Of a stretch of DNA of 64,000 nucleotides, positions 2,318-63,660 are shown one piece after another; the stretch's first letter is position 1, and every line of letters starts with the position of its first letter. The position numbers and the translations under genes were made by a program. Source of the DNA: Methanobrevibacter sp. YE315 (GTDB lineage Archaea > Methanobacteriota > Methanobacteria > Methanobacteriales > Methanobacteriaceae); NCBI RefSeq assembly GCF_001548675.1, contig NZ_CP010834.1:1523501-1587500 (forward strand). Reading direction: 5' to 3'. The notes below the pieces were generated by a model. The model did not search any database and was not told where the DNA came from. It was given only the letters and a program-made list of their open reading frames with translations.

Positions 2318-3139
2318 CTAATACTCACCAAAATCAATATCATGTAAATTATGCCAAAAGCGATCTTCTTCTGGAGGTAAAGTCATATAATCTCCATATA
2401 TCTGGCCCAATGTAGCATCTTGATTATTCGGAATTGTTGCTTGAATATCTTCAAATTGAACTACTTTAGAAGGTTCAAAATCAGATAATTTGAAATAAGA
2501 TAAGTAATTCAATGTTAAATCCGCATAATATTTACAATCTTTATTTTCATATTTCCTGAATAATTTAGGCAATTTTTTTTGGAAATAACTCGGTGTTAAA
2601 CCAATAACATTAAAGATTGGATGCAATGTATTGACAATCAACTGAACAATCTTAGATCCTTCATCAAATTTGATTGTGGAAATTGCATAAAATTTACATA
2701 ATATTAAACATATACGCATGAAGAAAAATCTTTTGATATTATTATTAGGAAGTTTATCGAGAATGAATAAATCTATATGCATGCCCAAATCAAATGATAC
2801 AAATTTATCCCAGAATTCAACCCAATGAGTCCCATTTAAAGACAATCTACCAAATTGGAAGAAATATTCTTCATTATATCTAGAATCTAAAACCGTGTAT
2901 TTTTCACAGTTTTTTTCTTCCATTATTTTTAAGAATTTTTCATAATCTTCTCTAAACATTACAATATCAATATCATCATCCCATGGAATAAAACCTTGAT
3001 GTCTGACAGCTCCAATCTCTGTTCCAAACCATAAATAATATTTTAAGTTATTTTCTTCGCAAATTTCCTTAAAATCTTTTAAAATTAAAAGGGTTACATC
3101 TTTGATATGTTGGAGTGTTTCATCATCATGAGCTTCCAT
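2318..3139 (-). CDS. LicD family phosphotransferase
   Basis: LicD proteins transfer a phospho-alcohol (phosphocholine, ribitol-phosphate or similar) from a CDP-activated donor to a surface glycan. This 273-residue copy has the family core GAVRHQGFIPWDDDIDIVMF at residues ~43-62, in which the DDDID aspartates bind metal, and the C-terminal LPPEEDR motif. The start is supported by GGTGAT 5 bases upstream. It is the last gene of a minus-strand operon behind a cytidylyltransferase fusion, an aminotransferase and a methyltransferase, which fits use of a CDP-linked donor made by these neighbours. A paralogue lies at 6594-7427. The exact transferred group is unknown. Confidence 0.9.
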   Translation of the reverse strand: MEAHDDETLQHIKDVTLLILKDFKEICEENNLKYYLWFGTEIGAVRHQGFIPWDDDIDIVMFREDYEKFLKIMEEKNCEKYTVLDSRYNEEYFFQFGRLSLNGTHWVEFWDKFVSFDLGMHIDLFILDKLPNNNIKRFFFMRICLILCKFYAISTIKFDEGSKIVQLIVNTLHPIFNVIGLTPSYFQKKLPKLFRKYENKDCKYYADLTLNYLSYFKLSDFEPSKVVQFEDIQATIPNNQDATLGQIYGDYMTLPPEEDRFWHNLHDIDFGEY

Positions 3140-3151
3140 TAAATCACCAAA

Positions 3152-4480
3152 TCAATATTTTTTAATGATATTTAATTCTTTATTTTCAAAATCTTCCATT
3201 ATTTTACAGATGGCCTTTGACACCTCTGGAGATACATAACCAATTAATTTTCCAAGTTCAATGGATTTTGCAAAAGCCACAAGCTCATATCTGATACCTT
3301 CACCATCTAACTGATAGAAATATTTCTTATTTTCCTCCTGATTTTCATATCTTAACTCAAAATAATCAGTTTTCCACCATGGTGCTGGCACATAGGCATA
3401 TCCTTCACTTCCAGAAATTATCAACTCACCTTCTGATTTAACACTATTCCCCACTTTAATAGATGCAACAGCATTTTTATATTTAAAATCAATTTTAGTA
3501 AACAAATCAAAATTATCTTTTCCTTCTAAAAGTAATGAATTTATATGTTTTTCATCATAATCTGTCCCAAGAATCTGAAATACTGGTAATAACGCAACTG
3601 GACCCCATGCAGAAATACTATTCCAAGAATTTTCATTAAATTGTCTTATACTAGTACAAGTTGAATCAACAGAATAAACATCACCAATATTTCCACCTTT
3701 AATTAATAATAATAACCTATCATAAGCGGTAGAATAAGCAGTTTTAATTGATTCCATTAAAATTAAATTATTTTTCTGAGATAAACCCAGAAGTTCTGAA
3801 AATTGATTTTCATCCAGTGTAATTGGAGATTCACAGAGAACATGGACATCATTTACCAAAGCTTTTTTAATATGCTGATAATGCATTGAAGGATGTGAAA
3901 CAATAAAAACTGCATCAACATTTCCTAATAATCTATCATAATCATCAATTATACTCACATCTTCATTTTCATAACATTTCTTCTCTTCATCGTTATAAAT
4001 ACAAATTTCAGTTACTTCAATCCCATTAACATATTTTGACTCGTCATAAAATTTTTTTAATACTGTTCCATCTCCAACTAAACCCAAACTAATGTTTCTT
4101 TTTTGAGATCGGATATCTGAACTTGAAACACCTTCAGTCCTTGGTAAATAAACCACATCACAATATTCTTTTAGATAATCGAAATGACCAACCCAATCAG
4201 AGCCTACTGTAAAAATATCTACATCAAACCTTTTTATATCATCAATTTTCTGACCTTCGTATTCTTCAATAATTATCTCGTCAGCCAGGCCAGTTGCACG
4301 TACAGATTCTATTCTTTCCATCAAGGACTGGTGAACATTAATTTTCCCTCTTTGTTTATCAAAATCATCTGCAGTAACACCTACAATAAGATAATCTCCT
4401 AAATCCTTTGCTCGTTCTAAGAGTCTTTGATGACCATAATGGAATAAATCATAAGTCCCATAAGTAATTACTTTAATCAT
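3152..4480 (-). CDS. Fusion: CTP-transferase-like cytidylyltransferase + Gfo/Idh/MocA oxidoreductase
   Basis: Residues 1-130 are a nucleotidyltransferase of the glycerol-3-phosphate cytidylyltransferase (TagD) type: GTYDLFHYGHQRLL with the HxGH motif (HYGH), and the later EGVSSSDIRS motif. From ~131 a second Rossmann domain begins (LGLVGDGTVLKKF) and continues through a Gfo/Idh/MocA dehydrogenase fold (VSHPSMHYQHIKKAL, CESPITL) to residue 442. The protein could therefore activate a phosphorylated alcohol with CTP and oxidise or reduce its precursor. The start overlaps the stop of the aminotransferase gene by one base (TAATG), implying translational coupling. The fusion is visible in one uninterrupted frame; the substrate is inferred only. 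Confidence 0.88.
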   Translation of the reverse strand: MIKVITYGTYDLFHYGHQRLLERAKDLGDYLIVGVTADDFDKQRGKINVHQSLMERIESVRATGLADEIIIEEYEGQKIDDIKRFDVDIFTVGSDWVGHFDYLKEYCDVVYLPRTEGVSSSDIRSQKRNISLGLVGDGTVLKKFYDESKYVNGIEVTEICIYNDEEKKCYENEDVSIIDDYDRLLGNVDAVFIVSHPSMHYQHIKKALVNDVHVLCESPITLDENQFSELLGLSQKNNLILMESIKTAYSTAYDRLLLLIKGGNIGDVYSVDSTCTSIRQFNENSWNSISAWGPVALLPVFQILGTDYDEKHINSLLLEGKDNFDLFTKIDFKYKNAVASIKVGNSVKSEGELIISGSEGYAYVPAPWWKTDYFELRYENQEENKKYFYQLDGEGIRYELVAFAKSIELGKLIGYVSPEVSKAICKIMEDFENKELNIIKKY

Positions 4481-5556
4481 TAAAATAAGCCTCTTTTTTG
4501 TATATCTTTAAGTGCATCGATTAGTTTATCATTGTCTTCACTTGTTAAATCGCCCATATGACCTACTCTAAATATCATATCTTTTGAAAGGTCATCACGT
4601 GCGGTACTAACCCAAATATCATATTCATTTTTTAATATTTCAACAAGATTAACATCAAGAATTTCCTTTGAATGAACGGTAGTGACTGCATTTGATAAAC
4701 ATTTACATCTAACTTCAAATGGAAATTGTTCTATTTTTGTTCTAAAATCACAAGCTAAATCAGATATTCTTTTTATTTCTGCTTCTGATCCACCATCATC
4801 TTTAATCTGTTTTAATCTGGCATTAAGTTGTAATATAATTGTAATTGCAGGAGTGTATGGTGTTTGACCCCTTACACCATTAATCAACATGTCTTCAAAA
4901 TCAAAATACATTGATTTACAAGTATTATTATTAACTCTTTCAATTGCTTTAGGTGATAGAACTATAATTGCAATACCTGGAGGGCATGCAAGAGCTTTTT
5001 GAGAACCAGTTATAATCACATCAACCTTATGGTCAACCATATTGATATAATCTGCTAAAAAAGAACTAACTGCATCAACTACTAATAAAAGATTGTTCTT
5101 CTCACAGAAATCACTTATCATGTCAATATCATAATGAACACCAGAACTTGTCTCACAAATATTAACTATAAAAGCAGTGTAATCCTCATTATCATATTCA
5201 TATAACATCTCTTTTGTAAGGCAAGATCCAAAATCAACTTTAATGTCATCACAAGGTATATTGTGGAGTTCGCATAAATCAACAAATCTTTGGCCAAATC
5301 CACCACCATTTACAATTAAAACCTTATCATTTTCATTGAAGACATTCATCACAGTGGATTCCATACCTGAAGTCCCAGATCCTGTTAAAAAAATAGCTCT
5401 CGCATCTTCATCAGCAAAAACTAATTCTTTCATCAATTGTTCATTTTCCAGATTAATTTTAGAAAATTCAGGTGTTCTAAAATAAGGAGTTTGTTGAGCT
5501 CCTATATTAAGAATTAAATCACTGCTCATAACTGGACCTAATGCAAAATTTAACAT
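4480..5556 (-). CDS. Class V aminotransferase, PhnW/AGAT-like
   Basis: This 358-residue PLP enzyme has the alanine-glyoxylate / 2-aminoethylphosphonate aminotransferase layout: LTGSGTSGMES for phosphate binding (~residues 58-68), DAVSSFLAD for the PLP aspartate, and GSQKALACPPG with the Schiff-base lysine. The start at 5556 is chosen because AAAGGAG lies 6-8 bases upstream; a longer frame from 5583 would overlap the previous gene and has no such site. In bacteria, related enzymes are paired or fused with cytidylyltransferases for aminoethylphosphonate decoration of polysaccharides. Here it is followed by a cytidylyltransferase fusion. No PEP mutase is visible, so an amino-alcohol phosphate is as likely as a phosphonate. 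Confidence 0.88.
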   Translation of the reverse strand: MLNFALGPVMSSDLILNIGAQQTPYFRTPEFSKINLENEQLMKELVFADEDARAIFLTGSGTSGMESTVMNVFNENDKVLIVNGGGFGQRFVDLCELHNIPCDDIKVDFGSCLTKEMLYEYDNEDYTAFIVNICETSSGVHYDIDMISDFCEKNNLLLVVDAVSSFLADYINMVDHKVDVIITGSQKALACPPGIAIIVLSPKAIERVNNNTCKSMYFDFEDMLINGVRGQTPYTPAITIILQLNARLKQIKDDGGSEAEIKRISDLACDFRTKIEQFPFEVRCKCLSNAVTTVHSKEILDVNLVEILKNEYDIWVSTARDDLSKDMIFRVGHMGDLTSEDNDKLIDALKDIQKRGLF

Positions 5557-5575
5557 GTAAAAATCTCCTTTAACC

Positions 5576-6283
5576 CTATTCAATTACAAAAAACATGTAT
5601 TTAGTTTCAGTATGGTCACTTAAATCATCAAAAAGGTAATCTGAAAAGATATTATCACAATTTAATTTATTAAATATTTCTCGATATTCTTGTTCAGTAC
5701 GATAAATAGCATTATAATCCGCTTCTAAACCTTCGGAATAAAAATCTTTAAGAGTTAATCTTGATTCCATGCAAGAAATCGGCTCCATTGCAAAAACTTT
5801 TTTATCCTCTCCACAAACAGAGTTCACTTCATCCATGATAATTTCCAAATCAGAATCATTAATATACATTAAAAATCCGCTGAAGATAACTATATCAAAT
5901 GGCGGTTGAATAACTAGCTCATCTACTTTAATATCGGTAGCAGACATTAATTGAAATTTACAATTTTCATAATCATAAGATTCTTCAGCTATTTTTAAAA
6001 GTTCTTCTGAAAAATCTAAACCTAAATATGATTCACATTTGTCATGTAATGCTTCAACCCAACGGCCAACTCCACATCCAATTTCTAAAATTTTTTTACC
6101 AGAAGAGTCAATATGTTCATAAAATAACTTTTTTTCTTCTTCGTGCCTTTGTGCGGAATTTTCTTTATCTTGAAACAAAACAATTGAAAATTCACTTTCC
6201 AAATCACGATTAGCCCTATCATTGAAAAAATCTTTTACTTTATTAGGACTAATATCTTCATTATTTCCATATAATCTAGACAT
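5576..6283 (-). CDS. Class I SAM-dependent methyltransferase
   Basis: This 235-residue Rossmann methyltransferase has motif I ILEIGCGVGRW (SAM-binding glycines), motif II YLGLDFSEELL, and an FDIVIFSGFLMYI strand. It is the first gene of the minus-strand operon leading to the aminotransferase, cytidylyltransferase fusion and LicD. It may therefore N- or O-methylate the group being activated, as in phosphocholine-like decorations. The target is inferred from position only; the sequence identifies just the general fold. Confidence 0.88.
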   Translation of the reverse strand: MSRLYGNNEDISPNKVKDFFNDRANRDLESEFSIVLFQDKENSAQRHEEEKKLFYEHIDSSGKKILEIGCGVGRWVEALHDKCESYLGLDFSEELLKIAEESYDYENCKFQLMSATDIKVDELVIQPPFDIVIFSGFLMYINDSDLEIIMDEVNSVCGEDKKVFAMEPISCMESRLTLKDFYSEGLEADYNAIYRTEQEYREIFNKLNCDNIFSDYLFDDLSDHTETKYMFFVIE

Positions 6284-6593
6284 AATAACAACTCACAAAT
6301 TAAATAATTATTATAATATATCTCTGAAATAATTTAAATAAATTATCATGAAATTAAATAAAATTCAAAAAAATTATTATCACAATCTTCTAAAATAAAT
6401 AGTTATCTTATTCATTTCTGCAATTTTTTAATTCAATATTTGTTATTCTTAGATGAAAATCAATAATATCCATCATGTTGACAGTTCCAATTATTTATAT
6501 ATTAATAATTTAAATAATTTAAATAACTATGATAAAAAATTTAAACAAGAAAAATAGCTTGTAAACTATAAATTTAATAGATGGAGAAATTTC
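6284..6593 (+). other. AT-rich divergent intergenic region
   Basis: This 310-base spacer separates the minus-strand methyltransferase operon from the plus-strand LicD gene and must hold promoters for both. It is extremely AT-rich with several TTTAAATAA-like stretches near 6500-6530 that could act as TATA boxes. GGAGAAATTTC just before 6594 is the ribosome binding site of the LicD gene. No repeat, small gene or structured RNA was recognised. Confidence 0.4.
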
Positions 6594-7427
6594 ATGTTCA
6601 AATCAAAAAGATATGATGATGAAACGCTTAAACATTTACAAAAAGTTCAAATAATGATGTTAAAAGACTTTGTTAAAATATGTGAAGAAAACAAAATAAT
6701 GTACTTTTTAATTGGAGGTTCTTTATTAGGAGCGGTCAGACATGGTGGATTTATTCCTTGGGATGATGACATTGATGTTATAATGTATAGAAGAGACTTC
6801 GAAAGATTAGATAACATAATGCAAAACAAAAAAAATGATAAATATGGGATTTTTAATGTTTTAAATGAAAAAAATTATCATCATACTTGGCCTCAATTTA
6901 TACTTAAAGGTACTGCTTTTATAGATTGGTGGGGGGACCAAGTAGATTATACTCCAAATATTTATATTGATATTTTTATTATGGATAATATCCCAGAAAA
7001 TAAAATTAAACGATTCATTCACAGATGGATCTCATTTACACTTAACCAAATGGTTATTTATTCAATAATTAAATATAAAAATGAATCTAAAATAAAAGAG
7101 ATTATACAACAAATAGCTCATTATATCTTAAAAATTATCCCCATTTCTTCCATGACACTTAAAAAAAGATGCATAAAAACATATAGAAAATATGAAAATA
7201 TTGAATGCAACGAATATTGCGATTTTCCATCAATGCACTTCATGCCAATTTATGAATCAAAAGATTTTTTACCTCCAAAAAAAGCAAAATTTGAAGACAT
7301 TGAAGTTAATATTCCAAACGATTATGATAAAATATTAACAAGACTCTATAATGATTATATGGAATTACCTCCAGAAGAAAAAAGATTCCGTCCAGCCCCT
7401 GAAAAAATTGATTTTGGAAAATATTAA
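6594..7427 (+). CDS. LicD family phosphotransferase, second copy
   Basis: This 277-residue protein is a paralogue of the LicD at 2318-3139, collinear over its length. The nucleotidyltransferase-like core GAVRHGGFIPWDDDIDVIMY sits at residues ~45-64 and the ending is LPPEEKRF...DFGKY, as in the first copy. The start has GGAG 7 bases upstream. It leads a plus-strand set with an IspD/TarI-type cytidylyltransferase and an SDR enzyme, so each LicD copy is paired with its own cytidylyltransferase. The two copies may use different CDP donors (inference). Confidence 0.9.
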   Translation: MFKSKRYDDETLKHLQKVQIMMLKDFVKICEENKIMYFLIGGSLLGAVRHGGFIPWDDDIDVIMYRRDFERLDNIMQNKKNDKYGIFNVLNEKNYHHTWPQFILKGTAFIDWWGDQVDYTPNIYIDIFIMDNIPENKIKRFIHRWISFTLNQMVIYSIIKYKNESKIKEIIQQIAHYILKIIPISSMTLKKRCIKTYRKYENIECNEYCDFPSMHFMPIYESKDFLPPKKAKFEDIEVNIPNDYDKILTRLYNDYMELPPEEKRFRPAPEKIDFGKY

Positions 7428-7571
7428 ACTTAATTTATAACTTAAATTAATAAATGATAAAGAAAAGATAAAAAGTCTTTTGAATAGTGAATTCATATGT
7501 TATTAATAATATTTAAATAATTTTAAATATAGATTTAAGAAACAAATAATTGCAAATTAATGTGTGATTTT

Positions 7572-8279
7572 ATGAATTATGTTATAATTTTGGCAGCAGG
7601 ATTTGGAACAAGAATCAAGAATCTAACAATTCCAAAGCAATATTATGAAATAAATGGAATCCCCATAATCATGTATACCATTAAAAAATTTATAGATGTG
7701 AATTGTTTTGATCATATTTACCTTACTGTAGATGATAGTTACAAAGATTTAATGATTCAACTTTTAAAAAAACATATTGATGATTATGAACAAATTAAAT
7801 TAGTTGAAGGTGGAAAAGAACGTATCGATTCTATTTGTAATGCTATTAAACAAATTGAGGAGAATAACATCTCAGATGACGATATAGTTGTTGTTCAAGA
7901 TGGTGTTAGGCCATTTGTAAGCGATGAAATAATCCTAAATAGCATTAAATGTGCTAAAAAATATGGCACTTGCGCTACATCTAGCCCCGTTAATGATACA
8001 ATATTCCAATCTGAAGATGGGGATACTGTAGACAATATTCCAGTTAGAAGTACACTCTTTTGTGGACAATCCCCAGATGCATTTAACTTAAAAAAATTTA
8101 TAAAAATGCTTTATGGTCTTAATGAAGAACAAAAGAGAAAAATTACTGGAACATCAGATATATGCTTATTCTATGATGTTCCAATTAAAATGATTAAGGG
8201 AAGTAATTTGAATTTTAAAATAACAACAGATGCTGATTTAAAAATAGCTGAATTATTATTAAAGGATATGGAATTCTAA
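7572..8279 (+). CDS. IspD/TarI-type cytidylyltransferase
   Basis: This 235-residue nucleotidyltransferase starts MNYVIILAAGFGTRI, the CTP-binding loop of the IspD / TarI family, and has KQYYEINGIPI (the conserved K-Q-x-Y), VQDGVRPFV and a C-terminal KITTDADLKIAELLL. Start 7572 is favoured over 7560 because GTGAT lies just upstream. Archaea make isoprenoids by the mevalonate route and do not need IspD. A TarI-like role, making CDP-ribitol or another CDP-alditol for the adjacent LicD protein, is therefore the better reading. The exact alditol is unknown. Confidence 0.88.
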   Translation: MNYVIILAAGFGTRIKNLTIPKQYYEINGIPIIMYTIKKFIDVNCFDHIYLTVDDSYKDLMIQLLKKHIDDYEQIKLVEGGKERIDSICNAIKQIEENNISDDDIVVVQDGVRPFVSDEIILNSIKCAKKYGTCATSSPVNDTIFQSEDGDTVDNIPVRSTLFCGQSPDAFNLKKFIKMLYGLNEEQKRKITGTSDICLFYDVPIKMIKGSNLNFKITTDADLKIAELLLKDMEF

Positions 8280-8309
8280 TTCTTAAATAACTAAAAATGC
8301 TGTGGGAAA

Positions 8310-9365
8310 ATGATATTTAATAAAATAATTGATGAAGATTTAAATCAAATCATTGAAGAAAATAATGGATTAAGAAAATTATATAACCAAACAGTTATGA
8401 TTACTGGAGCTTCTGGATTAATTGGAAGTTACTTTCTAAACACCTTAATAAAATTAAATGAAGAATATGGAGCTAATATCAAAATAATCCCACTGATTCG
8501 AAATTTGAATAGGTTAAACAAGGAAATAGTTAATAAAGAGTATATCAATCCAATTGTTCAAGATATCCTTAAACCAATAAAATATGATGGAGATGTAGAT
8601 TATATAATTCATGCAGCAAGTCCTGCAAGCCCACCCCTTATGAGAGAAAAACCTGTAGAAACAAATCTTGCAAATACTGTGGGAACAGCAAATGCATTAA
8701 CATTTGCAAAAGAACATAAAACAAAAAAATTTTTATTCATATCCTCACGTGAAGTTTATGGTCAAAATATTTCAAATCAAAAATATTTTAAAGAAGATGA
8801 TATTGGACTAATTAATCAATTAATACCTAGAAATTCATATGCTGAAAGTAAGAAAGCTGCTGAAAATATGTGTTTAGGATTCAATGAGGAATATGGACTA
8901 GATACAAAAATTGTAAGACTAGGGCAAACATTCGGTCCCGGAATGAACATTAACGGAGGAATGGTTCACACGGAATTTCTAAAAATGCTACTCAATAACG
9001 AAGATATTGTATTGCTTAGTGATGGATCTTCACTAAGAACCTATACTTATATCAGTGATGCCATAAGTGCAATGTTTAAAATCATTCTAGAAAGTAAAGA
9101 CATTGTTTATAATGCTGTAAATAACAAAAATGAAATTTCAATTAAAGAATTAGCTGAGACACTTATAACTTTATGTCCCGAAAAAAAATCAAAATTAGTG
9201 TTTGATATTGAAGAAGAAAAAGAAGGATACGATTATAAAACTTTTAAATTTTGTTTAATAACCTCAGAAAAAATTAGAGATGAACTGGGATGGAATCCTA
9301 AATATTCTATTAAAGAAGGATTTGAAAGAACAATTAACTATCTAAATAGTGATGTTGCACACTAA
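8310..9365 (+). CDS. NAD-dependent epimerase/dehydratase (extended SDR)
   Basis: This 351-residue extended short-chain dehydrogenase has the NAD-binding motif TGASGLIGSY (residues ~32-41), the HAASPASPP loop, the catalytic YAESK (YxxxK) after ISSREVYG, and VRLGQTFGPGM in the substrate domain. It is close in style to UDP-glucuronate decarboxylase/4,6-dehydratase-like sugar nucleotide enzymes. It follows the TarI-like gene by 30 bases in the same direction. It may make or reduce the sugar or alditol that is CDP-activated, or may supply a nucleotide sugar to the glycan. Family certain; substrate not. Confidence 0.88.
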   Translation: MIFNKIIDEDLNQIIEENNGLRKLYNQTVMITGASGLIGSYFLNTLIKLNEEYGANIKIIPLIRNLNRLNKEIVNKEYINPIVQDILKPIKYDGDVDYIIHAASPASPPLMREKPVETNLANTVGTANALTFAKEHKTKKFLFISSREVYGQNISNQKYFKEDDIGLINQLIPRNSYAESKKAAENMCLGFNEEYGLDTKIVRLGQTFGPGMNINGGMVHTEFLKMLLNNEDIVLLSDGSSLRTYTYISDAISAMFKIILESKDIVYNAVNNKNEISIKELAETLITLCPEKKSKLVFDIEEEKEGYDYKTFKFCLITSEKIRDELGWNPKYSIKEGFERTINYLNSDVAH

Positions 9366-9464: not shown

Positions 9465-10499
9465 TCACATATTAATTTTTCGTAAAATTTTACGGATTTT
9501 AGGTTTACTAAACATATATCCTAAAGTTCTTGACATTAATATAGCAACAGTGTAATGTTCATTAATAACAAAATAATTTAAAAAATCGAAAATAAAATTA
9601 TTAAACTTATTTATATTAAACTCTTTTTCTAAATTATTAATTACTTTAAAAAATTCTTTTCTTTTTTTATTAGTTACACCCGGCCTAATCATATAAACCT
9701 GATATAAGATGACCTTAATTTCTCTTTTTAATAGAAATTGTTTATTATGCGCACCATACTCCTCTAATAAATCATTAAATAAATGTATTGATCTCACTCT
9801 TGACCAAAACATTTTTTCATCTCTAACATTAGTGATTGATGGTTTTTCATCACTTTCACGTAATTTATTATAATATCCAAAATAATCTAAAAAAACAACT
9901 TTTTTAGCATGAAAAAATGAGTTTAATGAAAAATAACCATCTTCACCAAGTTCTTTATGACATTTAATATCGTTACTTATAACAAATTCTTTATTATATA
10001 TGGCAGCACACATACCGCCCCTATAATATTTATAATATTCTTTAATATTCTCCCCATTTTCAAAAGTAAATTCCTGTGTTTCACTTAAACATTGATGAGA
10101 CGTTTTTGAAGTTTTATCGCCTGCTACCCATGTCCAATTAGAATATACAAAATCAGCATTTGTTTCAACAATTTTATTGTAGAATACTTCACAAGCATCT
10201 TTTTCATATTCATCATCAGCATCCATAAACATTAAATATTTAGAAGAAGCGTTTTTTATTCCAATGTTCCTAGGAATGCCTGCACCGCCATTATTTTTAT
10301 CTAAAAAAATTCCTTTAACATTAGGATATCTTTTTTCATAATCGTTTATTACGTCTCTAGTATTGTCAGTAGAACAATCATCAACAACAATTAACTCAAT
10401 ATTTTCAAAACCAATTGTTTGATTAATAACTGAATTGATTGCATCGCTTATACAATCATCACTATTAAACACTGGAATAATCATTGTTAAATAATACAT
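9465..10499 (-). CDS. GT2 family glycosyltransferase
   Basis: This 344-residue family 2 (GT-A) glycosyltransferase has N-terminal LTMIIPVFNSDDCISDAINS, then IELIVVDDCSTDNT, the GGAGIPRNIGI segment and the metal-binding MFMDADDEYE. The C-terminal ~120 residues are basic and aromatic (KKRKEFFKVIN), without clear transmembrane segments. It lies convergent to the SDR gene and divergent from the flippase. It probably adds one sugar to the cell-surface glycan built by this island. Donor and acceptor cannot be deduced. Confidence 0.9.
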   Translation of the reverse strand: MYYLTMIIPVFNSDDCISDAINSVINQTIGFENIELIVVDDCSTDNTRDVINDYEKRYPNVKGIFLDKNNGGAGIPRNIGIKNASSKYLMFMDADDEYEKDACEVFYNKIVETNADFVYSNWTWVAGDKTSKTSHQCLSETQEFTFENGENIKEYYKYYRGGMCAAIYNKEFVISNDIKCHKELGEDGYFSLNSFFHAKKVVFLDYFGYYNKLRESDEKPSITNVRDEKMFWSRVRSIHLFNDLLEEYGAHNKQFLLKREIKVILYQVYMIRPGVTNKKRKEFFKVINNLEKEFNINKFNNFIFDFLNYFVINEHYTVAILMSRTLGYMFSKPKIRKILRKINM

Positions 10500-10801
10500 A
10501 ATACACCTTTTATATCATTATTTATTTTATATTTGTCTTATGAATAATTTATTTTTTTCTATTAGAAAGAATTCTTAAAAATTTAGATTTAAGTTTTTGA
10601 TAATTTATCAGATTTTTGTTCATAAATTATGTTAAAAACCATACGAAAATCAAAACATGCTCAAAAATAATAGTATAATGATAATGGAATTAATTAAATA
10701 ACTGTTTCCCTAAAAATCTTTAGATTTAAGAATGACTATGAAACCATTATATAAAATAAAAATAAATATTAAAATTGATACTATTTTTAAAAGAGGATTA
10801 C
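10500..10801 (+). other. AT-rich divergent intergenic region
   Basis: This 302-base spacer lies between the GT2 gene (minus) and the flippase gene (plus). It is very AT-rich and holds only poly-A/T tracts and TTTAAG/TTAAAT stretches of promoter type. AGAGGATTAC before 10802 is the ribosome binding site that sets the flippase start. No gene or structured element was recognised. Confidence 0.4.
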
Positions 10802-12232
10802 ATGAGTCAAGTACAAACAATATTCAAAAATATGAGTTGGTTGCTAATTTCACAAATTATTGCAAGTATTTGTGGTTTTATTTGGACAATTTTGATGGCA
10901 AGATACTTGGGAGTTAGTAATTATGGTATTTTTGGATTTGCTACTTCATTTACTGGGATTTTAGCAATCACAGTAGATTTAGGAATCAACACTCAGGTTG
11001 TCCGACATATCTCGACAGATTATGACTCTGCTCCAAAATATCTTGGAAATGCAATTCCTTTGAAAAGTATTTTTTCAATTGGATGTATGATATTGACATT
11101 AGTAATATTAATTTTAATGAAATCTGATGAACTTGTTATAACTGTTACCTTGCTTTTTACAATTGAAATGATTATTAAATCATACATTGGTCTACTAAAT
11201 GGATCTTTTCAAGCATTTGAAGAAGGAAAATATCAAGGAATTGGAAATACCATAGTAACTCTATTAACATTAATATTTATTTTAATCTCAATATTTGGTG
11301 ATTTAGGGCTTATTGGAATTGCTATTTCATATATTATTGCAAATTTTGTTGCATTATTATATGAATATTATGTTCTAAATAAACACATTGTAAAACCAAA
11401 ATTTGAATTAGATAGAACATTTTGTAAAAGTATTACATTAATTTCAATACCATTTGCAATCACAGGTTTATTATACACAATATATTACTCTATAGATGTA
11501 GTAATGCTAACAAACATGGTGGGAAGTTATGCTACAGGAATTTACAATGCAACATATAAATTAATCGCAGTTTTGAACTTATTTTACTCAGTTTATATAG
11601 CAGTAATTTTCCCAGTTATGAGTAAGTTCTTTAAAAACGATGAATCAATGCTTTTAATAAGCTTTGAAAAATCAATAAAATATTTAATGCTTATAATTAT
11701 TCCACTCGCTGTTGGAACTGTATTTTACTCAACCGATATTATAAATTTGATTTATGGAAATAAATATGATGCTGCTTCATCCGTTTTATCCATTTTAATT
11801 TGGACAGTATGTTTATTATTTATCAGTGGCGCAGCAAACACACTTTTAAATGCATCCCATAAAGAGGTAACAGTAACTAAAATTTATGCAATTGCTGCAG
11901 TATTCAATATAGTCTTAAACTTCTTTATGATTCCATATTTATCATATAATGGGGCAGCCATTACTACTGTCTTAAGTGATGTCTTAATCGTTATTATGCA
12001 AGCATATGCAATTTATAAACTTGGACACAGACCTAACAAGAAATTATATTCTGATTTAATTAAAATCATTATTGGATCAGGCATTTTAGGAATTGCACTT
12101 TACATGTTAAACTTAAATATGTGGGTTGCAATCCCTGTTGGTATAATAATTTATTTTGCAGTTGTTTATCTATTAAGACTCTTTGATGATAGTGATAAAT
12201 ATATAATAAACGAAATTTTAGGAAAAAATTAA
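10802..12232 (+). CDS. Polysaccharide flippase, Wzx/MOP superfamily
   Basis: This 476-residue integral membrane protein has about 14 hydrophobic segments. It begins with the Polysacc_synt-type N-terminus (MSWLLISQIIASICGFIWTI, then MARYLGVSNYGIFGFATSF). Wzx-type flippases move lipid-linked oligosaccharides across the membrane. Start 10802 is chosen because AGAGGA lies 5-6 bases upstream; a longer frame from 10775 lacks this. It sits between a glycosyltransferase and a UDP-GlcNAc 2-epimerase. It is thus the likely exporter of the glycan made by the 2.3-13.7 kb genes. Confidence 0.9.
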   Translation: MSQVQTIFKNMSWLLISQIIASICGFIWTILMARYLGVSNYGIFGFATSFTGILAITVDLGINTQVVRHISTDYDSAPKYLGNAIPLKSIFSIGCMILTLVILILMKSDELVITVTLLFTIEMIIKSYIGLLNGSFQAFEEGKYQGIGNTIVTLLTLIFILISIFGDLGLIGIAISYIIANFVALLYEYYVLNKHIVKPKFELDRTFCKSITLISIPFAITGLLYTIYYSIDVVMLTNMVGSYATGIYNATYKLIAVLNLFYSVYIAVIFPVMSKFFKNDESMLLISFEKSIKYLMLIIIPLAVGTVFYSTDIINLIYGNKYDAASSVLSILIWTVCLLFISGAANTLLNASHKEVTVTKIYAIAAVFNIVLNFFMIPYLSYNGAAITTVLSDVLIVIMQAYAIYKLGHRPNKKLYSDLIKIIIGSGILGIALYMLNLNMWVAIPVGIIIYFAVVYLLRLFDDSDKYIINEILGKN

Positions 12233-12417
12233 AAATAAAAAACATTCACCCCTTATATTACATGGGGGGACAGCAATATCATAAAAAATCCTAAAAATTT
12301 TACTGTTTCTTTAATTTTAAACTAGATACATATATAAAATTAAATTATCTAAATTAAATTATAACATTAAGATATATCAAAGAATTGTTTTAACCAATAA
12401 TACCTGAAGTGATAATT

Positions 12418-13746
12418 ATGAAAATTGCAACAATATTAGGGACACGACCAGAAATAATTAAAATGGCTCCAATCATCGATGAGATTAATAAGAACGGCAT
12501 TGAACAAATAATTATACATACTGGCCAACATTATGATAAAGAAATGTCAGATAATTTTTTTAGAGATTTGGAAATTCAAACTCCTGATTATAATATCCAT
12601 GTTGGATCTGGCACTCATGGTAGACAAACTGGGCGTATGATGGAAGGTATTGAAGAAATATTGTTGAAAGAAAAACCAGATATTGTCCTTGTTCAAGGCG
12701 ATACAAATGCAGTTCTTGCAGGCGCTCTTGTTTGCGGTAAATTACATATTGCAGTAGGTCATGTTGAAGCGGGATTAAGATCATTTGATATGACAATGCC
12801 TGAAGAAATTAATAGAAAAGTTGCTGACATCTGCTCAACAATGTATTTTATTCCAACAGAAAATTCTGCAATTAACTTATTATCTGAAGGTTTTTCCAGG
12901 AAAAACTTAATCATAACTGGGAATACAGTTGTAGATGCATGTTTTAGACATCTAGAAATTGCTAAAAAGAGAGGATTTGAAGAGGAATCTCTTAAAAACT
13001 TAGATATGGAAAATATGGAAAATATTTTAACACTAACAATGCACCGAGCAGAAAATGTAGACTTTAAAGAAAGAGTGGCTGAAATCATTGCAGCTTTAAA
13101 AGAATTAACTGATATGAATGTTATTTTTCCAATTCATCCAAGAACAAAAAATATGCTAGAAAAATTTGGGTTATTTGATGATTTGAAAAATTTAGAACAT
13201 ATCCATATTGTAAAACCCATTGGATATCTTGATTTCTTACTTTTAATTTCTAAATCAACATTAATATTAACTGACTCTGGAGGTCTACAAGAAGAAGCAA
13301 TAACATTAAATGTACCTGCATTAACATTGCGATATAACACTGAAAGACCCGAAACAGTGACTGCTGGAGGAAATATCCTAGTTGGGTCAGATAAAAAAGT
13401 AATCTTAGAGAATGCAAATAAAATTTTAAATGACAAAGATTTTGCGGAAAAAATGAAAAATGCCGTGAACCCATATGGTCAAGGAGATGCTGCTAAAAAA
13501 ACTGTTTTAGCTATTAAAAACTACTATGATGAAGGTGTTTTAAATATTACTGCACCAGAAGAAATAATGACTTCATTTACAAGAAAAATGACTCAAATAA
13601 ATGAAGATATTACTGTAAATGAATTTGAATTAAATGAAAATGCATTAATCCATATGGTATTTGATGGAGATAAAATGAGATTTCCGCTAGATGAATTAAA
13701 CTTAAATGGAATGATAATAATTTATGATAAATATGATGATAACTAA
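12418..13746 (+). CDS. wecB: UDP-N-acetylglucosamine 2-epimerase (non-hydrolysing) with C-terminal extension
   Basis: The enzyme interconverts UDP-GlcNAc and UDP-ManNAc. N-terminal [55 protein letters not shown] and [10 protein letters not shown] are all canonical. Start 12418 follows GTGAT at a proper distance. The family normally ends near residue 375. Here about 65 extra residues (from ~378, starting VLNITAPEE) form a Glu/Asn/Met-rich tail of unknown role. It supplies ManNAc or ManNAcA precursors for surface glycans and closes the glycan island; a hairpin overlaps its stop codon. Confidence 0.92.
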
Positions 13747-13870: not shown

Positions 13871-15397
13871 ATGAACAAAAAATACCTCATTGCAATTATT
13901 GCAATCCTATTAATAGTTTGTGCTGGCGCTTTCGCACTCACAAATTCATCCAGCAATGCTTCAACAAGCATTGATGCAAATGCACTGGAGGACAGAGGAA
14001 ACCTTGTTGTTGACTCTGAAAGCTTAGATGAAAATAATGGCTTATATCACACAGACAGTGCTGATTTAAATGCCATTCTTGTTAAAAATAGTGGAACATT
14101 AAAACTTGCTAATTCTATAATAAACAAAACAGGAGACACTGCATCCACAGGCGATGACGCGGACTTTTACGGAATCAATTCGGCCATTCTGGTCAATACC
14201 AACGGTACTTTAGACATTTCAAATGTTGAAATCAATACAAACTCAAAAGGATCCAACGGTATTTTTGTAACCAATGCCAATGCAAGCAGCGGTTCATCAC
14301 AAGGCGGTGAAGGAGGCCAACCACCTGAAGCAATGGGCAACGGCGCAGAAGGCCAAGGCGGAGACGGCGGACAACCACCTGAAGCAATGGGCAACGGCGC
14401 AGAAGGCCAAGGCGGAGACGGCGGACAACCACCTGAAAAACCTGACGGAAACGGCGGAGGCCCTGGTGAAGCTACAGTTGCAGGAAACACACAGGCTACA
14501 ATTAAGAATGTTAAAATCACAACACATTCCGATAAATCAAGAGGCCTGGATGCAACCTATAACGGAATAATCAATGCGGAAAATGTCATTATCAACACCG
14601 ACGGCCAAAGCTGTGCCGCTCTTGCAACAGACAGGGGTGAAGGCCAAGTGCATGTCAAAAACTCAGACATAAACACAGGAGTCAGCAAATCAAGCGGAAG
14701 GGGTTCACCTTTAATCTACTCAACAGGAAACATTACCCTGGAAAATACCAAAGGTACATCTTATGTATCCCAGATAGCCTGTATTGAAGGTAAAAACTCC
14801 ATTGAACTCGAAGATTGTGACCTTAAAGGATACGGAGAAGGAAACCGTCAGGATGGAGATGCATACGTTGACTTGGGTGGAGTATTCATCTATCAAAGTA
14901 TGAGTGGAGATGCTAGTGTTGGAACAAGCCACTTTAAAGCTTCAAACTCCAAATTGACAATCCCTAATGAATCATCAGTTAACAGTGAAGCACCTATGTT
15001 TCATGTAACAAACACCGCTTGCGTTATTGATCTGGACAATACCGAATTGAGCTTTGGCAGCGGAGTATTTTTAGAGATAACCGGCCAGAACCAATGGGGA
15101 AATGAAGGATCAAATGGCGGTGTGGCTGAAGTCAACACAAACAACGAAAAAATAAGCGGAAACGTTATTGTTGATGCAATAAGCTCCCTTAACTGGACCA
15201 TGAAAAACACTGAATTTAAAGGTGTCATCAACTCAACCGGAAACACAACAGTAAATGTTGCTGACGGCTCAACCTGGACATTGACCGGCGACAGTGCCGT
15301 TTCCAACCTAAAAGTTTCAGGAAACATCGATTATGGTGACCATACCCTAACAGTCAATGGCCAAAAATACGATAAGTCAAACCCTTTTAAAGGATAG
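13871..15397 (+). CDS. Adhesin-like secreted beta-helix protein with Gly/Pro-rich repeats
   Basis: This is a 508-residue extracellular protein. A signal or anchor segment (residues 1-22, IAIIAILLIVCAGAFALT) precedes an Asn/Ser/Thr-rich body with recurring short strands such as NVKITTHSDKSRGLDATYNG, typical of right-handed parallel beta-helix surface proteins. Residues ~148-190 are two perfect-type 18-residue repeats GGQPPEAMGNGAEGQGGD plus a partial third. The composition resembles the bacterial Cthe_2159-type carbohydrate-binding beta-helix proteins (family resemblance from memory). GC content is clearly higher than in the glycan genes before it. Likely role: binding to sugars or surfaces. 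Confidence 0.8.
   Translation: MNKKYLIAIIAILLIVCAGAFALTNSSSNASTSIDANALEDRGNLVVDSESLDENNGLYHTDSADLNAILVKNSGTLKLANSIINKTGDTASTGDDADFYGINSAILVNTNGTLDISNVEINTNSKGSNGIFVTNANASSGSSQGGEGGQPPEAMGNGAEGQGGDGGQPPEAMGNGAEGQGGDGGQPPEKPDGNGGGPGEATVAGNTQATIKNVKITTHSDKSRGLDATYNGIINAENVIINTDGQSCAALATDRGEGQVHVKNSDINTGVSKSSGRGSPLIYSTGNITLENTKGTSYVSQIACIEGKNSIELEDCDLKGYGEGNRQDGDAYVDLGGVFIYQSMSGDASVGTSHFKASNSKLTIPNESSVNSEAPMFHVTNTACVIDLDNTELSFGSGVFLEITGQNQWGNEGSNGGVAEVNTNNEKISGNVIVDAISSLNWTMKNTEFKGVINSTGNTTVNVADGSTWTLTGDSAVSNLKVSGNIDYGDHTLTVNGQKYDKSNPFKG
14312..14437 (+). repeat. In-frame 54-bp tandem repeat (2.5 copies)
   Basis: Two copies (14312-14365 and 14366-14419) differ only in a few third-codon positions. 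A third partial copy ends at about 14437. The unit encodes GGQPPEAMGNGAEGQGGD. Being a multiple of three, changes in copy number would keep the reading frame. Confidence 0.9.
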
Positions 15398-40498: not shown

Positions 40499-40539
40499 AA
40501 AAAGAAAAAATTAAAGCATAGTTTAACTTAACTATGCTT
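40499..40539 (-). terminator. Hairpin terminator of the first substrate-binding-protein gene
   Basis: AAGCATAGTT (40514-40523) pairs perfectly with AACTATGCTT (40530-40539). On the minus strand it is followed by an extended T-rich run. The stem includes the stop codon of the gene. Confidence 0.75.
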
Positions 40540-41503
40540 CCCAGTAGATTTTATCGTGAGTAATAACTTTATCTAAAAGCCCAATATCTACTTCAAGTTT
40601 TTGGAATGCATCAACATTTGCTTTAAAGCTGTCATCAATACCTGAAATGAATGGGAAAGTAGCTAAAGATCTTGCTTCTAACGCAGGGTCTGAAACGATG
40701 TCTTCAGGTAAGAGTTTAACTATTTCACTAGCATTACCGTTTTTGACATTCTCATTGATGTAGTTGGTTGAATTTTCGTGGATTTCCACAATGAGTTTTG
40801 CTTCGTCTTTATGATTTTTGATGAAATCATCGGAAGCTGCAACTACACAACATGGGTGGTTAGGCAAGATTTGAGCTGAATCAGCCAATACATGAGTATT
40901 GTTTTGACTTGAAGCAATACTTACATATGGTTGGAAAGTACAAATACCATCAATTTGGCCTGTTTTCAATGCATCATTCATTGAAGGAACTTTCATAGCT
41001 GACACATTAACATCATCAATTGTTAAACCGTTTTTGGTCAGGTAGTATGAAAGCAAAGCATGTTGAATTGATGCTTCACCAGGAGTAGCAATTGATTTTC
41101 CTTTTAAATCCTGTGCAGAATGAATTCCTGATGCATCGGTTACAACAATACCTGATCCTTCAGTTTGAGCTGAAGAAATAACTTTAACCGGCACATCTTT
41201 TGCAATTGAAGATAAAACCGGAGTAATACCTACATATCCAACATCAACTTCTCCACTAGCCATAGCAGTCATCAAGTCACCACCATTGTTGAATTGAACT
41301 AGTTCTACAGTGATGTTATTGTCTTTATACATACCTTTAGCATCTGCAACGAATAATGCTGCATCATGGTCTGAAGGTAAGTAACCTATCTTTACAGTGT
41401 CGTCTCCCCCACCTAAAAAGTCAAAAAGACCTGCACTAGCTGAACCCATTACTAAAAATGCAGCGAGTGCTAACACTAAAATAAATGTAATCTTTTTATT
41501 CAT
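40532..41503 (-). CDS. Substrate-binding protein, NitT/TauT (SsuA-like) family, copy 1
   Basis: This 323-residue exported binding protein has a signal peptide of residues 1-~27 (ITFILVLALAAFLVMGSASA). A type II periplasmic-binding fold of the NMT1/SsuA group follows: IGYLPSDHDAALFVADAKG, FNNGGDLMTAMASGEVDVGY, GEASIQHALLSYYL, MKVPSMNDALKTGQ and ILPNHPCCVVAASDDF. This group binds nitrate, taurine, sulfonates or thiamine precursors. GGTGAAAATA fixes the start at 41503. No permease or ATPase gene is adjacent. A paralogue sits at 47403. The CC pair in the ligand region may be diagnostic. Confidence 0.9.
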   Translation of the reverse strand: MNKKITFILVLALAAFLVMGSASAGLFDFLGGGDDTVKIGYLPSDHDAALFVADAKGMYKDNNITVELVQFNNGGDLMTAMASGEVDVGYVGITPVLSSIAKDVPVKVISSAQTEGSGIVVTDASGIHSAQDLKGKSIATPGEASIQHALLSYYLTKNGLTIDDVNVSAMKVPSMNDALKTGQIDGICTFQPYVSIASSQNNTHVLADSAQILPNHPCCVVAASDDFIKNHKDEAKLIVEIHENSTNYINENVKNGNASEIVKLLPEDIVSDPALEARSLATFPFISGIDDSFKANVDAFQKLEVDIGLLDKVITHDKIYWEA

Positions 41504-41579
41504 TATTTTCACCGTTAAGTAATTAAATTAATTACAATTATTAATTATTCGAGTATTAATATAAATATATTACATTAAT

Positions 41580-47374: not shown

Positions 47375-47410
47375 TTTAAAAAAAATAGTAGTTAAAATAG
47401 ATTTAACTAC
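47375..47410 (-). terminator. Hairpin terminator of the second substrate-binding-protein gene
   Basis: GTAGTTAAA (47388-47396) pairs with TTTAACTAC (47402-47410). A run of T follows on the minus strand. It separates this gene from fdhD. Confidence 0.7.
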
Positions 47411-48341
47411 CTTCCCAGAATATTTTATCTTGAGAAATCGGTTTCTTCAAGACGCCCAAATCGACTTCCAAATTCATAAAGTCCATAACATCCTGTTTAT
47501 ATTTATCATCTAAACCGGATATCAATGAAAATCCGGATAAAGCCTTTTTCTCAACTTCCACATCAGAAACTATATCCTTAGGCAAAAGGCCTGCAGCCTC
47601 ATCAGTATTATTGTTGATATAATCTGTTGCATTTTTATGGATTTCCAAAATAGTCTTGGTTTCATTTGTATGCTCATTTATAAACTTATCAGAAGCCACC
47701 ACTACACAACATGGATGATTTGGCAAGATTTCAGAAGAATCAACTAAAACATTAGCCCCGTTTTTCTCAGCAATTGATACATAAGGCTCAAAAGTAATCA
47801 TTCCATCAATCTTATCAGTTTTTAAAGCATCATTCATTGAAGGAACTTTCATGGCTGAAACTTTTACATCCTTAATATCCATTCCATTCTGTTTCAAGTA
47901 ATAAGTAAGCAACATGTGCTGAATTGAAGCTTCACCAGGTGTAGCTATTTTTTTACCCGCTAAATCGCTGACAGAACTGATGTCTGAGTTTTTAGCAACA
48001 ACAATTCCACTGCCTTCAGTTTGAGCAGCTGAAATTACCTTTACAGGAACACCTTTTTCGATTGATGATAACACCGGTGTGATTCCAACATAACCAACAT
48101 CAACATCACCACTAGCCATGGCAGTCATCAAGTCACCACCGTTGTTGAATTGGACTAACTTAGTGTTAATGCCGTTTTCTTGAAATTTGCCTTGTGCATC
48201 AGCAACAAAAAGTGCTGCATCATGATCTGACGGCAAATAACCTATTGTTACAGTATCGCTTCCCCCTCCCATAAGGAAAAATGCTCCAACAGCAACAATA
48301 GCTATAACTGCAATAATAATTCCAATAATTTTATTATCCAT
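47403..48341 (-). CDS. Substrate-binding protein, NitT/TauT (SsuA-like) family, copy 2
   Basis: This 312-residue paralogue of the protein at 40532 has near-identical blocks: IGYLPSDHDAALFVADAQG, FNNGGDLMTAMASGDVDVGY, GSGIVVAKNSDIS, GEASIQHMLLTYYL, MKVPSMNDALKTDK and ILPNHPCCVVVASDKF. It is anchored by one N-terminal hydrophobic segment (IIGIIIAVIAIVAVGAFFLM). GGTGATTTA precedes the start. Unlike copy 1 it lacks the TAACWATTGTTA site upstream, so it may be expressed under other conditions. No transport permease or ATPase is nearby. Confidence 0.9.
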   Translation of the reverse strand: MDNKIIGIIIAVIAIVAVGAFFLMGGGSDTVTIGYLPSDHDAALFVADAQGKFQENGINTKLVQFNNGGDLMTAMASGDVDVGYVGITPVLSSIEKGVPVKVISAAQTEGSGIVVAKNSDISSVSDLAGKKIATPGEASIQHMLLTYYLKQNGMDIKDVKVSAMKVPSMNDALKTDKIDGMITFEPYVSIAEKNGANVLVDSSEILPNHPCCVVVASDKFINEHTNETKTILEIHKNATDYINNNTDEAAGLLPKDIVSDVEVEKKALSGFSLISGLDDKYKQDVMDFMNLEVDLGVLKKPISQDKIFWEGS

Positions 48342-49890: not shown

Positions 49891-51564
49891 TTAATTTGAA
49901 GGTGATTGCAACCATGTATAATACATTCCCATCAAATTATCCTGTTTAACATTATCCTTTTCAATAGTAGGCTGTTCTGCAATGCTTCTGATTCTAGCAA
50001 CGAAATCATCATCCTTTTTGATTTGTATTTCAAGACAGCCCTTCTTATTCTCTCCAGAACCATTAATGAATTCCAACATGTCTTTGATGATAACATCCAA
50101 ATCATCAATTACAGACTGATCTAAATTATTTTCCTCAATAAACTTAGCCATTTCACCTAAATCATCTTTACTGTATGTCTCATCGAAATTCACTATTTTA
50201 TTTACTTCATCTTCAACTTTTTCAACCAAAAAGAACCCTTCCAAATTAGGGGATTTTCTATCAATATACCAGTTAACGGCAATTATTCCAATTAATATCA
50301 GGAGTTCGCTAAGTGCAAATGAGACCCATAATGCATTAAGACCCATGAATGGAGCCAATATGTATGTCAGAATAATCAGCACAGCAAAACCATCCAGTAT
50401 ACTAAGTGAAATACTATAAATCTTTCTTCCTATAATTTGAGCATATGAAATGAACAATACGATTGTTCCTCTAAACAGGTATAATGCAGAAAATATTCTA
50501 AGCCCATTAACGGTCATGGCAGCTAAATTTGGTTCATAAACATTGAACATTGCCAATACTGCTTGCGGAAATAGTTCTAATAATAAAAAGAAAAGTATTG
50601 AAAAGACTATTTGAATTTTCATTCCCATATCCAAAATTGTTTTAATAGCATGAAAATCCTTTTGCCCATATAAAAATCCTACAATAGGTATTATAGTACT
50701 TACTAATCCAGAAACTATAATCCCAGTCATTGACATTGTTTGAATACAGACAGAAAAAGCAGTTACACCACTAATTCCTGCAAAAAATGAAGAAATATAA
50801 TTACCAAAAAATGTCTTAACTACAAATGACAGTTGTCCGATTGCAGAAGGCAACCCAATCAGGAATATTGGAATAAACAGACCCCAGTCAATATTGGAAA
50901 CTTTAGATGTTATGATGGATGCTTTTTTCATTTTGATTAACAAGATGATTATTATAGCACCTATAATATATCCAACAGTTGTAGCAAGGGCAGAGCCTTC
51001 AACACCCATTGAAAACCCACGAATAAATATGAAATCAAACATTAGGTTTATGATGTTGGAAACGGCAATAATCAATGTAGCATATTCCGGTTTTCCCGCA
51101 ACCGGCAGGAAATAGATGATTGATTGAGTTATAATTATAATGGGCGCACTTAAAAGCATTATCTTGACTAACAAATAATAATGCCCTCCATAATTGACGT
51201 TGCTGCTTAAAAAGTTAGAAACTTCCGTATTAAAAAAAACTGCCAATATAATGAAGATTAAAGAGACAACAACAGAATAAACTAAAGCAAGAGAAAAAAC
51301 TCCGCCGGCATTTTCCTTTTTTAATTCACCGATAAATGATGCATATTTAACACTGCCCCCAATTCCAACTACAATTGCAAACATTGCATATAAAAGCAAT
51401 ATGGGCATTGCTAGATTAAGCAATCCCAATGCATCATTTCCTAAAAGATTCGCCACTACAATCCCATCTACAAATTCGTTGAGTGAAATTGCAACGGCGG
51501 TCAATATTGAAGGAATTAAAAACTTCAGAAATATATTATTTAGATTTTTATTTTTGCTCATCAT
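49891..51564 (-). CDS. MATE family efflux protein with RsbW-like C-terminal domain
   Basis: The protein has 557 residues. Twelve membrane segments (residues ~10-440, NNIFLKFLIPSILTAVAISL) of the MepA/DinF-type MATE family are followed by a soluble tail from ~455. The tail (VDETYS-type start, KFIEENNLDQSVIDDLDVII, CLEIQIKKDDDFVARI) resembles the first half of an anti-sigma-factor/HATPase (RsbW) fold. The start overlaps the preceding ATP-grasp stop (ATGA). It is the likely exporter of the peptide made by the upstream NRPS. The regulatory role of the tail is inferred. Confidence 0.87.
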   Translation of the reverse strand: MMSKNKNLNNIFLKFLIPSILTAVAISLNEFVDGIVVANLLGNDALGLLNLAMPILLLYAMFAIVVGIGGSVKYASFIGELKKENAGGVFSLALVYSVVVSLIFIILAVFFNTEVSNFLSSNVNYGGHYYLLVKIMLLSAPIIIITQSIIYFLPVAGKPEYATLIIAVSNIINLMFDFIFIRGFSMGVEGSALATTVGYIIGAIIIILLIKMKKASIITSKVSNIDWGLFIPIFLIGLPSAIGQLSFVVKTFFGNYISSFFAGISGVTAFSVCIQTMSMTGIIVSGLVSTIIPIVGFLYGQKDFHAIKTILDMGMKIQIVFSILFFLLLELFPQAVLAMFNVYEPNLAAMTVNGLRIFSALYLFRGTIVLFISYAQIIGRKIYSISLSILDGFAVLIILTYILAPFMGLNALWVSFALSELLILIGIIAVNWYIDRKSPNLEGFFLVEKVEDEVNKIVNFDETYSKDDLGEMAKFIEENNLDQSVIDDLDVIIKDMLEFINGSGENKKGCLEIQIKKDDDFVARIRSIAEQPTIEKDNVKQDNLMGMYYTWLQSPSN

Positions 51565-52835: not shown

Positions 52836-52847
52836 AATATAAACCTC

Positions 52848-54122: not shown

Positions 54123-54140
54123 TTATAACCCTCTATTTCA

Positions 54141-55424: not shown

Positions 55425-55429
55425 GAGTC

Positions 55430-60466: not shown

Positions 60467-60467
60467 A

Positions 60468-63488: not shown

Positions 63489-63660
63489 GATAAACACCTT
63501 ATAAAAAAGTCTATTTAACAAATATATTAAATTTATTGATTGAAACATAAACTAGAAAAAATAGTTGATTATGAAAGAATTGATTGTTTATGCCCTAATA
63601 TTTTACAATTCAAAAAAAATTAATAAAAAAAATTAAAAAAAGAAAATTTATCCAATTTTC

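Follow-up and report, generated by a model that had tools for sequence, protein, structure and literature searches.

Here, we examine a 64,000-nucleotide stretch of the archaeon Methanobrevibacter sp. YE315 (positions 1523501-1587500 of a 2.27 Mb, single-contig Methanobacteriaceae genome that is 99.96% complete; hereafter, the window), in which two gene modules, or arms, run in opposite directions. An earlier note on this DNA had described two LicD modules, each with its own cytidylyltransferase, and this description holds: all seven open reading frames are intact at the coordinates and on the strands given below, with strong family matches, and the modules lie back to back. With moderate confidence, we read them as a bacterial-style locus for surface-glycan decoration, comprising two donor modules for cytidine diphosphate (CDP)-activated alcohols that each end in a LicD transferase. 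The two modules would supply different phospho-alcohols to a surface polymer, in a way that recalls how teichoic acids are assembled and decorated in Gram-positive bacteria.

Two divergent arms with LicD transferases

Arm 1, on the minus strand, consists of four tightly spaced genes: an S-adenosylmethionine-dependent methyltransferase (MT; 5576-6283; PF13649, 51.7 bits), a pyridoxal-phosphate-dependent class-V aminotransferase (AT5; 4480-5583; PF00266), a TagD-type nucleotidyltransferase fused to a Gfo/Idh/MocA domain (3152-4480; PF01467 and PF01408), which we denote TagD::Gfo, and the LicD-family phosphotransferase LicD1 (2318-3139; PF04991, 146.5 bits). Arm 2, on the plus strand, encodes a second LicD-family phosphotransferase, LicD2 (6594-7427; PF04991, 146.4 bits), an IspD/TarI-type cytidylyltransferase (7560-8279) and an extended short-chain dehydrogenase/reductase (SDR; 8310-9365; PF01370, 126 bits). 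Both arms point away from a 310-bp intergenic region (6284-6593) with 15.5% G+C.

The whole genome contains no LicD genes other than LicD1 and LicD2. In both proteins the PF04991 match spans residues 1-227 and includes the acidic PWDDDID motif (GFIPWDDDIDI in LicD1 and GFIPWDDDIDV in LicD2), and a search of the Protein Data Bank (PDB) returned Fukutin-related protein as the sole credible solved relative of LicD2. Across the phylum, 90 of 152 genomes have a LicD gene. The gene content supports a pair of distinct modules for CDP activation, each with a LicD transferase, as the earlier note had also proposed.

A bacterial cassette at the core of arm 1

The nearest solved relative of AT5 is PDB entry 3f0h (414 bits), titled simply 'Aminotransferase'; BhcA- and PhnW-type transaminases are more distantly alike. 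The invariant lysine lies in an SQKAL motif, and the protein probably starts at an ATG near 5556 instead of the TTG at 5583, because its homologues begin MLNF. Scanning the genomes of 84,980 species yielded 408 AT5 relatives, and in the best 80 loci, which we fetched, TagD::Gfo lies immediately 3′ of AT5 in 61, with at least one gene between the two in 10 more. These fetched relatives come from Bacillota, Bacteroidota, Verrucomicrobiota, Spirochaetota, Chloroflexota and archaea, and many are derived from the gut. A maximum-likelihood tree built from 99 AT5 rows, the bootstrap of which had not settled, nests the clade containing the window protein (29 archaeal rows) within bacteria with a fork support of 92/94. 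A second archaeal clade stands apart from it in the same tree. The AT5 and TagD::Gfo core of arm 1 is a gut bacterial cassette, clearly acquired from bacteria of that habitat. In loci L021, L022, L024-L027 and L050, from a second archaeal clade, the gene for the sn-glycerol-3-phosphate dehydrogenase GpsA directly precedes TagD::Gfo and follows UbiD- and PurE-type genes.

LicD genes adjoin AT5 in many loci, and five loci from Bacillota (L102, L112, L115, L118 and L130) contain both arms, with LicD, AT5, TagD::Gfo, IspD-type and SDR genes. The named close relatives of the source genome are Methanobrevibacter species and one Methanosphaera, and in most of the Methanobrevibacter relatives a LicD1-type gene comes after TagD::Gfo. 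The Methanosphaera copy is 65-89% identical across the entire neighbourhood, which points to transfer between methanogen genera. Within the family, about 18 of 120 genomes encode TagD::Gfo at 49% identity or above, and about 15 more encode a form that is 35-39% identical.

Where genes intervene between AT5 and TagD::Gfo, they belong to amine-acting families (octopine dehydrogenase, OCD/mu-crystallin, GNAT and ATP-grasp) or, at locus L101, encode a CDP-alcohol phosphatidyltransferase. This is the pattern expected from a core that makes a CDP-amino alcohol and a variable set of N-tailoring enzymes, among which MT would be one more. MT is an accessory of arm 1, present in 11 of the 23 AT5 loci of the family. 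Its best PDB match is a phosphoethanolamine N-methyltransferase, at a weak 37.6 bits for one domain, which we use here since the top score sums two domains of one target.

The fusion in TagD::Gfo is genuine, because dozens of bacteria and archaea encode proteins of the same architecture and the AlphaFold2 model is confident, with a predicted local distance difference test (pLDDT) score of 90 when built from a 31-sequence alignment (36 when folded from the single sequence). The TagD-like part (residues 1-126) matches the solved structures 1coz and 2b7l at 123-125 bits and scores 116 bits on TIGR01518, for which the curated cut-off is 165. Alignments show that it conserves the TagD catalytic motifs HxGH, GxDWxGxFD and RTxxxSS, and that a tryptophan common to TagD and TarD is a variable residue in the TagD::Gfo family.

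The C-terminal part (residues 131-431) is structurally close to the Gfo/Idh/MocA enzyme 3e9m (Foldseek TM-score of 0.85 by target length), in keeping with the two-domain fold. The earlier note was right about a fusion; its oxidoreductase assignment fared less well, since the canonical catalytic lysine of the EKP motif is missing. Serine takes its place (ESP) in the window protein, as it does in 65 of 85 AT5-linked relatives; just 3 of the 85 keep the lysine. Were the domain nevertheless a working dehydrogenase, it would oxidize a glycerol moiety that AT5 would then aminate, giving CDP-serinol or CDP-aminopropanediol. The intact fold, the GxxGxG loop retained by the window protein and the few relatives with EKP fit such a scheme, but the rarity of the lysine and the absence of the glycine loop from 63 of the 85 relatives make it unlikely in our judgement. 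Judged by these residues, the domain is probably not an ordinary dehydrogenase. Strong conservation of E217, P219 and a PWWKT block indicates that it is under selection, and cofactor binding is possible given the glycine loop of the window protein; with fold and loop kept and the lysine lost, we treat it as a domain that binds a cofactor, a ligand or a partner.

On our favoured reading, arm 1 makes a CDP-amino alcohol de novo, ethanolamine- or serinol-like. AT5 would provide a small phosphorylated amino alcohol, and the TagD domain, judging by its conserved residues, would couple this to cytidine triphosphate (CTP). MT would N-methylate the amino alcohol in strains that have it, and LicD1, as expected of its family, would move the phospho-amino alcohol onto a glycan. 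Both a two-carbon product (ethanolamine type) and a three-carbon one (serinol or aminopropanediol type) are possible.

One alternative is that arm 1 yields plain CDP-glycerol, TagD activating sn-glycerol 3-phosphate made by GpsA while AT5 acts elsewhere, for example on an amino sugar of the glycan. TagD is the closest solved family to the cytidylyltransferase domain, the source genome encodes a GpsA and no further strong TagD-like match, and several clade-B loci of archaea have GpsA right before TagD::Gfo. However, direct pairing of AT5 with TagD::Gfo is frequent across phyla, amine-tailoring genes are inserted between them, and the tryptophan of TagD and TarD has been exchanged. The organism's own GpsA (at 1.1176 Mb), moreover, adjoins a different nucleotidyltransferase (NTP_transferase) and two glycerophosphotransferase-family proteins in which PF04464 is fused to a GT4 domain. 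We therefore regard plain CDP-glycerol as a rather improbable product. GpsA, itself unusual for an archaeon, forms a row with these three genes (L133:8637-15258; genome 1117.6-1124.3 kb).

A classical Lic1 phosphocholine system, or one for 2-aminoethylphosphonate (AEP), is far less probable still. Lic1 (LicA-LicB-LicC-LicD) likewise combines a LicD-family transferase with a cytidylyltransferase and uses a small CDP-alcohol as donor, and its reading would accommodate the nearest match of MT; the distant likeness of AT5 to PhnW would fit an AEP route. Searches of the genome, however, returned no match to PF01633 (choline kinase, LicA) and none to PF13714 (phosphoenolpyruvate (PEP) mutase), which argues against the phosphocholine and the AEP route, respectively. 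The cytidylyltransferase is also of the TagD type and not of the LicC or PntC type, and the aminotransferase suggests that the amine is formed de novo. PntC, the AEP cytidylyltransferase-transaminase (PDB 6pd1), resembles arm 1 in combining a nucleotidyltransferase with a class-V aminotransferase, and LicD is found nearby (PMC6697681), but its nucleotidyltransferase belongs to another family and in arm 1 the two functions are encoded by separate genes. The product that the earlier note envisaged, aminated, methylated and phosphocholine-like, thus survives in part: the aminotransferase and the methyltransferase are there, whereas choline kinase and PEP mutase are missing, the likeness of MT is weak and several relatives have no MT.

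A diverged TarI paralogue in arm 2

To our knowledge, archaea do not use IspD for isoprenoid synthesis. The IspD-type enzyme of arm 2 scores 220 bits on NF001183, the D-ribitol-5-phosphate cytidylyltransferase subfamily (cut-off 166), and 165 bits against the TarI structure 6xhp. It shares 37% identity with the TarI that the genome encodes elsewhere, and its gene partner is the SDR, not TarJ; by sequence, then, it is a diverged TarI paralogue. The genome's TarI directly precedes TarJ, which matches ribulose-5-phosphate reductase 1 (6xh9) at 371 bits. This pair, for CDP-ribitol synthesis, lies at genome 677.4-679.1 kb (L155:8928-10644).

The SDR carries GASGLIG, SREVYG and YAESK motifs, the second of which sits where dTDP-glucose dehydratases have DEVYG, and its best PDB matches are UDP-glucuronate decarboxylase-like. 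In all six family relatives with an SDR match of at least 57% identity, an IspD-type gene lies within about 2 kb of it; just two of these six IspD-type genes are close orthologues. The SDR may accordingly be the reductase that works with the IspD-type enzyme. Other methanogens have an alternative arm 2, composed of LicD, GpsA and IspD.

If arm 2 simply made CDP-ribitol, the SDR would serve an unrelated nucleotide sugar, as its decarboxylase-like matches would allow, and the score of the IspD-type enzyme above the NCBIfam ribitol cut-off would be explained. But a full TarI-TarJ pair exists elsewhere in the genome, which indicates that housekeeping CDP-ribitol is not made through arm 2, and the SDR co-localizes with IspD-type genes in other genomes; we consider this explanation doubtful. 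Arm 2 probably makes an alditol other than ribitol, by analogy with pneumococcal CDP-arabinitol. The TarI-like enzyme would use CTP to activate the phosphate of a sugar or alditol, the SDR would then reduce a keto group, in an order borrowed from the pneumococcal pathway, and LicD2 would transfer the alditol phosphate. The alditol-like product suggested in the earlier note is, by this analogy, plausible.

The pneumococcal AbpA is said to be IspD-like and to have as its partner a reductase acting on CDP-xylulose (a report attributed to Wang et al., 2012). The pneumococcal system (AbpA/Abp1 and AbpB/Abp2) is the nearest described pair, as likened by description and not by sequence: abpA, 720 bp long, encodes a cytidylyltransferase of about 240 amino acids and adjoins a second enzyme gene (PMC10118250), just as the cytidylyltransferase of arm 2 does. 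Arm 2 differs in being archaeal and in having a LicD neighbour. Wall teichoic acid synthesis through TarI-TarJ and TagD uses the same CDP-activation families, and both a true TarI-TarJ pair and transferases of PF04464 are encoded in the genome; in contrast, the TarI-like enzyme of arm 2 is diverged and has an SDR in place of TarJ, and the TagD of arm 1 is fused to a Gfo-like domain.

Surface-glycan context and significance

Beyond arm 2 lie a GT2 glycosyltransferase (9465-10499, minus strand; PF00535, 122.8 bits), a Wzx-type polysaccharide flippase (10775-12232, plus strand; PF01943, 129 bits) and WecB/MnaA, the UDP-N-acetylglucosamine 2-epimerase for UDP-N-acetylmannosamine supply (12409-13746, plus strand; TIGR00236, 458 bits, above the cut-off). 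All of these have a G+C content of 25-30%, compared with 35.5% in the remaining window, and the locus probably extends at least to the end of WecB at 13746. By virtue of position, both arms would act on the polymer exported by the adjoining Wzx. The other flank (an SNF transporter and purC/purQ/cobA/glmS-type genes) recurs beside the locus in relatives, as if the chromosomal site were fixed and the surface-glycan genes that occupy it variable. Searches for transfer RNAs and Rfam families found no match in the window. A phage origin was rejected, PHROGs matches being limited to the generic SDR and WecB.

Every substrate, product and acceptor named here is inferred, as is the link to Wzx, and several points weigh against our reading. 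LicD members differ in donor and acceptor; the TagD domain scores under the TIGR01518 cut-off, leaving the alcohol that it uses undecided on sequence grounds; GpsA is tied to TagD::Gfo in one archaeal clade, where TagD could simply make CDP-glycerol; that GT2, Wzx and WecB share a pathway with the arms is suggested by their position alone; and we know of no close homologue with a known product or substrate. Attachment to pseudomurein and mimicry towards host lectins, both part of the earlier note, drew no support from a sequence that is silent on linkage and on lectins. Our literature search found nothing on LicD in Methanobrevibacter, nor on phosphocholine in connection with Methanobrevibacter and pseudomurein.

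Teichoic-acid-like chemistry in an archaeon, which the earlier note had put forward, is borne out by the gene content: besides TarI-TarJ and GpsA, the genome has eight matches to PF04464 (the CDP-glycerol/ribitol phosphotransferase family) in 7-8 genes. The three of these proteins that we scored fall under the TarB/F/L equivalog cut-offs, and one PF04464 gene adjoins rhamnose-type sugar-nucleotide genes; at L140:3358-11844 (genome 75.4-83.8 kb), a 363-amino-acid TarL/TarF-like protein lies by dTDP-rhamnose-type genes, glycosyltransferases and a probable sugar-phosphate transferase. A canonical wall teichoic acid linkage unit was set aside, as the genome contains no PF03808 match for the linkage-unit glycosyltransferase TagA/WecG. 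For Methanobrevibacter ruminantium, a 2010 publication reported walls with as much phosphate as teichoic-acid-containing bacterial walls, and a genome with homologues of teichoic-acid genes (PMC2812497); such chemistry was thus put forward for Methanobrevibacter at that time and is not a new idea for the group.

Elsewhere in the window, a secreted adhesin-like protein with GGQPPEAMGNGAEGQGGD repeats (13871-15397) has no NCBIfam match, and two paralogous NitT/TauA-like substrate-binding proteins (40532-41512 and 47403-48341) are a few kilobases apart. Two genes like those of nonribosomal peptide synthetases, three tandem ATP-grasp-like paralogues and a MATE-like transporter (49891-63548) may together make up an archaeal nonribosomal peptide locus. 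L053 and L054 are near-identical copies of the decoration locus on two contigs of one metagenome-assembled genome (G105:C103 and C118), reflecting either duplication or assembly redundancy.

In a survey of phosphocholine genes across bacteria, some species turned out to use an unknown route, and the authors suggest that a pathway is still to be identified (PMC10434233). The AT5 and TagD::Gfo cassette is a candidate for this missing route, or for that of a related amine. More tentatively, the cassette could represent a way of making a CDP-amino alcohol without choline kinase that has not been described before, is widespread in gut Bacillota, Bacteroidota, Akkermansia and Treponema, and was passed on to gut methanogens, so that bacteria and archaea of one habitat would share the same zwitterionic decoration of their surface, with lineage-specific N-methyl, N-carboxyalkyl or N-acyl variants. 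In Methanobrevibacter sp. YE315, this bacterial decoration module sits in an archaeal glycan locus, in a genome rich in teichoic-acid-type precursor genes. As 47 of 48 genomes sampled from the genus (and 65 of 120 from the family) encode TarJ, genes could be assigned to the wall phosphate chemistry that was reported for methanogens decades ago.

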